Source: Candidatus Moraniibacteriota bacterium (GTDB lineage Bacteria; Patescibacteriota; Minisyncoccia; Moranbacterales; GCA-2747515). From it: a stretch of 18,840 nucleotides of DNA. The notes beneath the pieces were generated by a model. The model had not been told where the DNA came from and did not search any database. It saw only the letters and a program-made list of their open reading frames with translations. Numbering within the stretch: the first letter of the stretch is position 1; each line of letters begins with the position of its first letter. The stretch lies in contig JALXES010000055.1 of assembly GCA_027069365.1 (NCBI GenBank), positions 1 through 18,840 of the forward strand. Reading direction: 5' to 3'. This document shows, piece after piece, positions 14,767 to 16,524 of this stretch. Both the position numbers and the translations under genes were made by a program.

Positions 14767-14794
14767 ATTGTACCATTGACACGCTGTGCGCCAA
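14767..14794 (-). promoter_or_regulatory. Probable promoter of the helicase/DUF45 operon
   Basis: Minus strand: -35 TTGGCG (14794-14789), a 16-nt spacer and -10 TACAAT (14772-14767). It interlocks with the stronger plus-strand promoter at 14776-14804, so both cannot be occupied at once. Confidence 0.55.
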
Positions 14795-14804
14795 AGGATA
14801 TACT
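14776..14804 (+). promoter_or_regulatory. Near-consensus sigma70 promoter
   Basis: -35 TTGACA (14776-14781, perfect), a 17-nt spacer and -10 TATACT (14799-14804). The predicted +1 falls on or beside the A of ATG 14811. This is the best promoter match in the window. Confidence 0.8.
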
Positions 14805-14810
14805 ACACAC

Positions 14811-14885
14811 ATGCAGATACTCACACACAACAACTCTTTCTGGTTTTATGTTACCGACCTGTGGGAGGCCGCGTTTTGTGTGTAG
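14811..14885 (+). CDS. Candidate leaderless 24-aa leader peptide (or short non-coding transcript)
   Basis: ATG 14811 lies 7 nt after the -10 box, so the mRNA would start with the start codon. The peptide begins MQILTHNNSFWF and ends LWEAAFCV (two Trp, four Phe). The ORF stop is 25 nt before an intrinsic terminator. The bases ACCGACCT (14853-14860) in the ORF repeat the terminator's 5' arm (14914-14921) and could compete for its 3' arm. With promoter and terminator the unit gives an RNA of about 130 nt, so a small RNA is the main alternative. Confidence 0.4.
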   Translation: MQILTHNNSFWFYVTDLWEAAFCV

Positions 14886-14910
14886 ATAAACATCACTTTT
14901 TCTCCAGACA

Positions 14911-14945
14911 AAAACCGACCTTCCTCGCGAAGGTCGGTTTTATTG
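14911..14945 (+). terminator. Bidirectional intrinsic terminator upstream of the CxxC protein
   Basis: AAAACCGACCTTC (14911-14923), a 5-nt loop and GAAGGTCGGTTTT (14929-14941), then ATTG; the reverse strand ends in TTTTTG. A 13-bp stem. It shares the outer AACCGACC/GGTCGGTT stem with the gyrA terminator. Confidence 0.88.
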
Positions 14946-14976
14946 TCTGCACGTTAACATACTAGAGGAGGATATC

Positions 14977-15198
14977 ATGTGCAACATTGACGTCACCCCG
15001 CGTGCCATGTACTACGACGGTGCGCTGGCGAAGTGCCCAAAGTGCAACGCCACTCTGCAATACTTCACCACCGTGCCGGCGCACGGCAGCACAACCACTG
15101 ACGCACCCTGCCTTGTGCGCCACTATAGCGCACCGTGCAGCTGCTCGCTGACAGGCTACTGGCTCCCGGCACCAGAGCAACTTGGTACGCACTCATGA
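14977..15198 (+). CDS. Small CxxC (zinc-ribbon-like) hypothetical protein (73 aa)
   Basis: ATG 14977 follows AGAGGAGGATATC, a strong Shine-Dalgarno. The protein has CPKC (20-23) and a second cysteine cluster APCSC (C54, C56) plus C45, which suits a zinc ribbon or rubredoxin-like knuckle. It also has a short aromatic segment (LTGYWLP). No membrane segment. It lies between two intrinsic terminators; no separate promoter was seen in the 35 nt before it, so expression may depend on read-through of the terminator at 14911-14945. I recognise no family. Confidence 0.68.
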   Translation: MCNIDVTPRAMYYDGALAKCPKCNATLQYFTTVPAHGSTTTDAPCLVRHYSAPCSCSLTGYWLPAPEQLGTHS

Positions 15199-15206
15199 CT
15201 CCCTAC

Positions 15207-15241
15207 GCCGTGAGCGTTCTTATACGCATGCGGCTTTTTTT
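15207..15241 (+). terminator. Intrinsic terminator after the CxxC protein gene
   Basis: GCCGTGAGCGT (15207-15217) pairs with ACGCATGCGGC (15224-15234), with two G-T pairs and one mismatch, around a 6-nt loop; seven Ts follow (15235-15241). It lies 9 nt after the stop codon. Confidence 0.85.
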
Positions 15242-15312: not shown

Positions 15313-16524
15313 ATGATTAAAAGATATATAAAACGTGGAAAGTATTTACAGAAAGTAGCACCATTTATTGATAAAGATATCATCAAGGTCTTTGTTGGGC
15401 AGCGACGTGTGGGAAAGTCTTATCTGCTTTTTCAGATTATGGATGTCATTCGCAAAGAAAATCCCCACGCCCATATTATCTACATCAATAAAGAAAAGTT
15501 TGAATTTGATGATATTGTAGATTACAAGACATTGCTGCTTTATGTAAAAGAAAAAAGTTCCCGGAAGCACAAAAATTATTTGTTTATTGATGAAATTCAG
15601 GATATTGCGCAATTTGAAAAAGCATTGCGGAGTTTAAAAGCGGATGGGAACTATGACATTTACTGCACGGGAAGCAATGCAAATCTCCTTTCCGGAGAGC
15701 TGGCAACGTACTTATCGGGGCGCTATATAGAGATCCCCGTGTATTCTTTGGATTATCAAGAGTTTCTTATGTTCCATAAACTGCAAAACACTGAAGACTC
15801 TTTTGACAAGTACATTCGCTTTGGTGGAATGCCGTATCTCATGCACTTAGAGCTAAAGGAAGAAATTGTGTTTGATTATCTCCACAGTGTGTATAACACA
15901 ATTTTGCTGAAAGATGTCGTCAGTCGTTACAAGATTCGCAATGTTTCTTTCTTGAAAAATCTTGTTCGTTATGTGGCAGACAATATTGGTGCAGTGGTCT
16001 CTGCCAAAAAAATTAGTGATTTTCTCATCTCCCAAAGAATAAAAATTTCACCAAACATTGTTTTGGATTACTTATCATATTTGCACAATACGTTTTTTAT
16101 CTATAAAGTCCCGCGCATTGATGTTAAGGGACGGAAAATTTTTGAAGTTGGCGAGAAATATTATTTTGAAGATGTGGGTCTGCGTAATGCTATTGTAGGA
16201 TATGCGCATAGTGATATCAACAAAGTCTTGGAGAACGTGGTGTTCGTGCATCTGATGAGCAATGGGTATCATGTTTTTGTGGGGCAACTCAAAGAAAAAG
16301 AGATTGATTTTGTCGCAGAAAAGAACAATGAGCGCATATATGTTCAAGTGGCATACAAAATTCATGAAGACAATTATGAGAGAGAGTTTGGCAATCTGCT
16401 AAAAATCGCAGATTCTTACAAAAAAATTGTTGTTTCCGCGGATTCTTACATAGGACACAGAACCCACCAAGGAATTAAGCATGTGCATATTACAGACTTT
16501 TTGTTAGAAGACGTTACCGTGTAA
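15313..16524 (+). CDS. AAA+ ATPase with DUF4143 C-terminal domain
   Basis: 403 aa. Walker A GQRRVGKS (29-36), Walker B YLFIDEIQD (D93, E94), sensor-like TGSNANLLSGELATYLSGR (119-137) and the IRFGGMP motif (168-174) identify the AAA_14/DUF4143 family. The DUF4143 part (about 200-365) has a PD-(D/E)xK-nuclease-like layout (KEKEIDFVAEKNNERIYVQVA), with D..E/Q variants. The biological role of the family is unknown; it is common in mobile and CPR gene pools. Codon use is strikingly AT-rich compared with the GC-rich neighbours (many AAA, ATT, GAA codons), which suggests recent transfer. It stands alone, with its own palindrome-decorated promoter and no partner toxin or antitoxin nearby. Confidence 0.92.
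   Translation: MIKRYIKRGKYLQKVAPFIDKDIIKVFVGQRRVGKSYLLFQIMDVIRKENPHAHIIYINKEKFEFDDIVDYKTLLLYVKEKSSRKHKNYLFIDEIQDIAQFEKALRSLKADGNYDIYCTGSNANLLSGELATYLSGRYIEIPVYSLDYQEFLMFHKLQNTEDSFDKYIRFGGMPYLMHLELKEEIVFDYLHSVYNTILLKDVVSRYKIRNVSFLKNLVRYVADNIGAVVSAKKISDFLISQRIKISPNIVLDYLSYLHNTFFIYKVPRIDVKGRKIFEVGEKYYFEDVGLRNAIVGYAHSDINKVLENVVFVHLMSNGYHVFVGQLKEKEIDFVAEKNNERIYVQVAYKIHEDNYEREFGNLLKIADSYKKIVVSADSYIGHRTHQGIKHVHITDFLLEDVTV

Follow-up and report, generated by a model that had tools for sequence, protein, structure and literature searches.

What is a 24-codon ORF doing between a promoter and a terminator, directly ahead of a gene for a small CxxC protein? The locus lies in an 18,840-nucleotide stretch of a Candidatus Moraniibacteriota genome, which we call the window (the assembly comprises 748,695 bases in 128 contigs), and the original prediction had proposed either a leader peptide or a small RNA for it. 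The features listed there (24-codon ORF, 13-bp terminator, Shine-Dalgarno sequence and 73-aa CxxC gene) were confirmed in every measurable point (Table 1). The leader-peptide reading has also gained support and can be sharpened: judging from sequence comparison and folding, the unit is quite probably a ribosome-mediated transcription attenuator responding to the supply of aromatic aminoacyl-tRNA, of a kind that is often leaderless and is here joined to an orphan gene.

Table 1. Features of the leader unit and of the gene behind it, in window coordinates
Feature	Position	Strand	Evidence or remark
Promoter TTGACA-17-TATACT	14776..14804	+	Promoter scan; equal layout in same-genus genome G001
Leader ORF, 24 codons, MQILTHNNSFWFYVTDLWEAAFCV, probably leaderless	14811..14885	+	ATG at 14811, stop ends at 14885; homologous 25-codon ORF in G001
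Control codons F-W-F-Y (codons 10-13)	14838..14849	+	FFWFYF in G001; F and W before B in 29/29 family leaders
Segment A, ACCGACCT	14853..14860	+	Copy of terminator 5′ arm core; can pair with D; A:D swap z −3.4
Segment B, end of ORF, antiterminator strand pairing with C	14864..14887	+	B:C swap z −5.1
Segment C, terminator 5′ arm (14911-14923) plus preceding B-pairing stretch	14899..14923	+	
Segment D, terminator 3′ arm, U-rich end	14929..14941	+	Fold; C:D swap z −8.6
Shine-Dalgarno GAGGAGG of CxxC gene	14965..14971	+	Sequence
73-aa orphan protein, CPxC + CxC, zinc-ribbon-like by motif	14977..15198	+	ORF list

The leader unit and its same-genus counterpart

As had been claimed, the promoter is the best in the window, where it is the sole 11/12 match. 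The scan found 20 promoter-like sites across the window (13.1 ± 3.3 in shuffled sequences) and lists nothing between 14945 and 14977, in keeping with the suggestion that the CxxC gene has no obvious promoter of its own. The leader ATG is 6 nt past the −10 box. Given the spacing expected between a −10 box and +1, we infer that +1 is the A of this ATG; the short distance fits a leaderless mRNA.

The terminator, a 13-bp hairpin with a loop of 5 (14911-14923/14929-14941), was picked up by RNA folding and is absent from the list of our simple scan. Segment A, inside the ORF, copies the terminator 5′ arm in C, and B, at the end of the ORF, resembles D. B can pair with C, replacing C:D, and the aromatic run lies upstream of B. 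On sequence grounds, the ORF, spacer and terminator together have classical attenuator anatomy. The B:C helix is long and irregular, spans C plus the stretch before it, and has the same shape in the window and in G001, with energies of −16.4 and −17.5 kcal/mol, respectively, for RNA ending with C. A:D is able to enclose B:C. The G001 leader is predicted to be most stable when nested in this way; the most stable fold predicted for the window leader, by contrast, retains the terminator. Compared with shuffled sequences, the fold energies correspond to z −2.9 for the window and −5.1 for G001, and the window’s B:C helix stands out modestly (z −2.1). At Rfam cut-offs there was no match in the window leader or in 20 other loci, and thus no T-box or riboswitch; in the whole window Rfam matched a tRNA only, and Phe_leader (RF01859) reached 19.2 bits (cut-off 55) in this region, over the terminator.

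G001, the one same-genus genome available for comparison, carries the same unit (TTGACA-17-TACACT, ATG 6 nt past the −10 box, 25 codons) next to the same helicase as in the window. The leader DNAs are identical at 104 of 128 positions (81%), and the CxxC proteins share 39-44% identity. By eye, all four base changes in codons 11-24 alter the amino acid, and near the 5′ end of the leader the two genomes have letters in common that are read in different frames, which argues that the RNA is conserved in addition to the aromatic run. A DNA search of 93 relatives found the unit in G001 alone, the 14 other matches that we inspected being unrelated pieces. The helicase is present in 15 of 17 family genomes; among those whose sequence stretch reached its 5′ end, the unit adjoins it only in G001.

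The locus had been described as the second of two units of the same design, of which we took the first to be the minus-strand one at 9974-9563. That description does not hold: the stop of the first unit lies inside the terminator’s 5′ arm, without attenuator anatomy and, as judged by eye, without an alternative pairing. It comprises a weak promoter (TAGGCA-18-TATACT) at the gatB end, 24 codons and an 84-aa Cys-rich ORF, and its DNA had no clear match in five relatives (best E 0.215 in G001, 0.018 or worse in the others). The equal leader lengths had been allowed to be chance, and this caution was well placed, as leaders of the family described below span 24 to 33 codons. The idea of a shared regulatory scheme thus stands through other genomes and fails for the window’s own two units. 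The proposed search for the promoter/ATG pattern did show enrichment, with 104 matches in the 17 family genomes against 39 for a reversed pattern; 103 distinct matches were analysed by script, and several are, by inspection, a leader, terminator, Shine-Dalgarno sequence and gene in that order.

Related leaders across the order

A profile built from 4 leaders and then from 15 was run on 128 genomes of the order. With the 15-leader version, 30 matches were obtained at E ≤ 0.0021, of which 29 were kept, from 29 genomes in 17 genera (15 are rows of the profile and 14 are new; weaker matches were left outside the count). The match in G076 was dropped: it sits within an 823-codon frame. A hairpin with a U-rich end is present at all 29 loci, as a raw count by the script’s rule alone. 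Besides the F and W noted in Table 1, Y precedes B in 27 of 29 leaders; the profile having been constructed from aromatic leaders, some of this aromatic content is to be expected. The C-terminal residues are conserved as well, as FVFA in most members and FCV in the window. At L231 (G036), segment B is read in another frame (RRSICFCG) with its bases kept, reflecting either a sequencing slip or an RNA-level constraint. Measured from the −10 box of the best promoter, the ATG follows after 6 nt in 11 of 29 leaders and after 9-44 nt in 17, one leader being too close to a contig end; leaderless starts therefore appear common in the family but not universal.

How firmly the window belongs to this family was examined by jackknife. 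With the 27 leaders of other genera, G001 was recovered by both peptide (E 1.5e-4) and DNA (E 5.3e-9). For the window the values were 1.3 and 1.8e-5, the DNA match lying mainly over the terminator, and a search with profile A8 at E 0.02 missed the window. Since its peptide goes unrecognised by the leaders of other genera, the window’s membership rests on G001, and its sequence appears tied to the order-wide FVFA aromatic family mainly through that relative.

Draws beyond the order (383 class and 379 phylum genomes) gave 71/22 genomes with matches at E 0.05/0.02, many of them by chance. A fixed-rule screen passed 3 of 44 class and phylum loci, and in our judgement 8 of the 44 look leader-like by eye (L196, L203, L233, L234, L239, L240, L250 and L251).

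Competing helices and the position of the ribosome

We compared own segment pairs with pairs exchanged between species, using 20,000 permutations. Across the 29 leaders, own B:C pairs averaged −18.39 kcal/mol vs −15.40 when swapped (z −5.1, p ≤ 5e-5), and own C:D pairs −15.37 vs −10.50 kcal/mol (z −8.6, p ≤ 5e-5). The result persisted with one leader for each of the 17 genera (B:C z −3.9, p 1.5e-4; C:D z −6.8) and with the window’s genus removed (27 leaders; z −4.6 and −8.1), while the negative controls were flat (A:C z 1.2, B:D z 0.1). A:D also responded (Table 1); A:B pairing is not established by these values (z −2.0, or −1.2 with one leader per genus). For the window itself, four foreign C segments pair with B better than its own C does, and its own D is the best partner of its C. 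B:C and C:D, which are mutually exclusive, are thus both co-adapted between species and both under selection.

In textbook attenuation, the position of a ribosome on control codons chooses between terminator and antiterminator. We modeled this by hiding a ribosome-sized stretch codon by codon in RNA made to the end of C. In the window, B:C was full with the ribosome up to codon 14, faded over codons 15-18 and was absent from codon 19 to the stop; in G001 it was full to codon 15 and later absent or present in traces. The aromatic runs (codons 10-13 in the window and 10-15 in G001) end at this border or one codon before it. Once the RNA is full-length and at equilibrium, the window reverts to C:D even with a ribosome stalled at codons 11-14; its switch must therefore be kinetic, with B:C forming before D is made. 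In ribosome-free RNA, the window adopts B:C, but in G001 B is captured by a 5′ segment. By a loose rule, 25 of 29 family members gain at least 4 B:C pairs with the ribosome in the run rather than at the stop; a strict rule (at least 6 pairs in the run and fewer than 3 at the stop) is satisfied by 14 of 29. Four members (G041, G059, G065 and G089) fail both rules and do not fit the ribosome-masking model.

For the window leader we infer transcription start, translation, stalling, signal and switch as follows. Transcription would begin at the ATG that opens the 24-codon ORF, or immediately beside it, and the ORF would be translated while being transcribed. A shortage of Phe-, Trp- or Tyr-tRNA would halt the ribosome in the F-W-F-Y run and leave B free to pair with C, and the polymerase would continue into the CxxC gene. 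With plentiful aromatic tRNA, the ribosome would reach the stop and cover B, C would pair with D, and transcription would end after about 130 nt.

Downstream genes, alternatives and implications

In three genomes of another genus (G016, G010 and G015), related leaders stand before tyrA-like genes. In G016, the leader MNKQLINNWYYFWFYFMDLDRGQFVFACNI is followed by a 44-aa ORF, prephenate dehydrogenase and the start of prephenate dehydratase (PDH_N 3.6e-18, PDH_C 2.1e-15, PDT 3e-15); in G010 and G015, the leader is followed at a distance of about 0.5 kb by a PDH_N match. A weak leader match in G005 also precedes a PDH_N match. We also observed 43-57-aa ORFs ending in Trp (GW/HW) at L154, L158, L159 and L162; such an ORF separates the leader from the tyrA-like gene in G016, G010 and G015, and a similar one follows the G012 leader. 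Prephenate dehydrogenase exceeds the Pfam cut-off in 14 of the 128 genomes of the order, four of which carry a leader: G010, G012, G015 and G016 (the G012 copy is on a contig other than the leader’s); the other 25 leader genomes, whose assemblies are incomplete, lack a match above the cut-off, G000 having one below it only and G001 none.

Elsewhere the genes differ. Of ten other downstream proteins compared with Pfam, one passed its cut-off (DUF2079). In G005, an HMGL-like synthase lies behind a Leu-rich leader (L094; 2.4e-52) and an ornithine cyclodeaminase behind a leader ending in IPSPTPR (L053; 1.8e-91); as a raw folding result, both leaders are able to form the B:C alternative. A leaderless-looking short ORF, a terminator and a gene with a Shine-Dalgarno sequence also occur at L060/L128 (G011/G013), L065 (G009) and L075 (G007), the genes encoding a membrane protein, a protein of unknown type and a GNAT protein. 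Our shuffle screen was noisy (z −1.0 for L075 and −0.9 for L094; another hairpin was chosen for L053, L065 and L077), so these loci rest on inspection, and L053 and L094 also on B:C folding.

Long orphan proteins lie behind the leaders L077 (G011), L132 (G001), L139 (G009), L222 (G014) and L221 (G120). They have no Pfam match and share short motifs around R-x-D and E-V/I in a poor alignment; they may be one divergent enzyme family. Four loci of genus g5 (L052, L096, L102 and L108) combine a strong promoter, an immediate hairpin terminator and a small Cys-rich gene (KKCATCGCxCGG...), and in three of the four the ATG opens only MMN-stop; this looks like a separate promoter-terminator-Cys protein design.

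The window’s own 73-aa protein is an orphan. Database searches returned itself and the G001 copy alone, and no wider family; against the 128 genomes of the order there were three further weak matches (E 0.001 to 0.006), two of them with stops. Pfam RUBY_RBDX matched at E 0.012 with 15.5 bits (cut-off 26.5), and the AlphaFold model (mean pLDDT 52.2) was too poor for use. Kinship with the CPVC protein behind the G069 leader was considered and rejected (hhalign probability 1%, E 0.052). An AT-rich stretch carrying an AAA_14/DUF4143 ATPase gene follows directly at 15313-16524; no ORF of this type was seen near the CxxC gene in G001, and the stretch is possibly an insertion.

The mixture of Phe, Trp and Tyr in the leaders, the mostly non-biosynthetic genes behind them, the scarcity of prephenate dehydrogenase above the cut-off in the leader genomes and the conserved leader ends would also suit an attenuator of the same build with another trigger, such as general ribosome slowing, a ribosome-binding drug or a small molecule acting through an arrest peptide, as TnaC does. 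We regard this as unlikely. The conserved leader end is made of the same bases as segment B, so that pairing with C explains its conservation; the aromatic runs differ between leaders in how their residues are ordered and in how long they are, whereas an arrest motif would be fixed; and the codons suit the pathways that can be named (aromatic leaders with tyrA-pheA, the Leu-rich leader with the HMGL-like synthase, IPSPTPR with ornithine cyclodeaminase).

Less probable still is a plain trans-acting small RNA of about 130 nt, bounded by promoter and terminator, with the CxxC gene read by leakage. Both signals are strong, the RNA is better conserved than the protein, and the terminated trpL leader of S. 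meliloti works in trans (PMC7298713), yet co-adaptation of a B:C helix that competes with the terminator is unexpected of such an RNA, and the order of leader, Shine-Dalgarno sequence and gene recurs in family members although the genes differ. The terminated RNA of an attenuator may nevertheless have a second role as a small RNA. That an ordinary promoter and a common terminator merely happen to lie next to an unrelated short ORF is scarcely credible: terminators with AACCGACC-like arms do occur elsewhere (window 2091-2071; L006), as does the promoter-ATG spacing in the reversed-pattern control, but this reading is contradicted by the conserved unit in G001, by the leaders found across the family and by the swap tests.

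The E. coli phe and trp leaders are attenuators with control codons in a short leader ORF. The proposed attenuator resembles these enterobacterial systems in its short ORF with a run of control codons, its choice between B:C and C:D and its U-tract terminator, and differs in its mixed Phe, Trp and Tyr codons, its frequent lack of a 5′ UTR, its phylum and its mostly orphan targets. Candidate attenuators of actinobacterial trp, trpS and leuS, with leader peptides and terminator/antiterminator pairs, were found by genome comparison; they concern another phylum, one amino acid per leader and named amino-acid genes (PMC1262725). The trpL leader of S. meliloti (rnTrpL/peTrpL) is a ribosome-dependent attenuator whose transcript begins at the leader ATG, as we propose for the window, and which releases both RNA and peptide; it differs in its 14 aa, its use of Trp only, its biosynthetic target and the trans action shown there (PMC7298713). 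Mycobacterial leaderless polycysteine ORFs, whose codons sense cysteine (Canestrari et al. 2020, as cited in PMC9031893), are likewise short, leaderless ORFs with amino-acid-sensing codons; they are described as exerting translational control of downstream genes, whereas here a terminator would compete with an antiterminator. Among the matches listed in the open-licence literature, there was no attenuator from CPR bacteria.

A bolder and less likely reading is that the Patescibacteria as a whole use an aromatic attenuator, freed from biosynthesis, as a sensor of hunger or host contact: a shortage of aromatic tRNAs would switch on lineage-specific orphan proteins, some of them small and Cys-rich, from leader transcripts that are often leaderless, and the leader RNA or peptide that is released might have effects in trans. 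If the attenuator itself is real, attenuation would outlive its usual pathway, as the 25 of 29 leader genomes without a prephenate dehydrogenase above the cut-off would illustrate, and the orphan genes behind the switch would be candidates for nutrient or host-contact functions. A large and mostly uncultured bacterial group would then have a sequence-predictable gene switch whose input is named and whose targets can be read from genomes.
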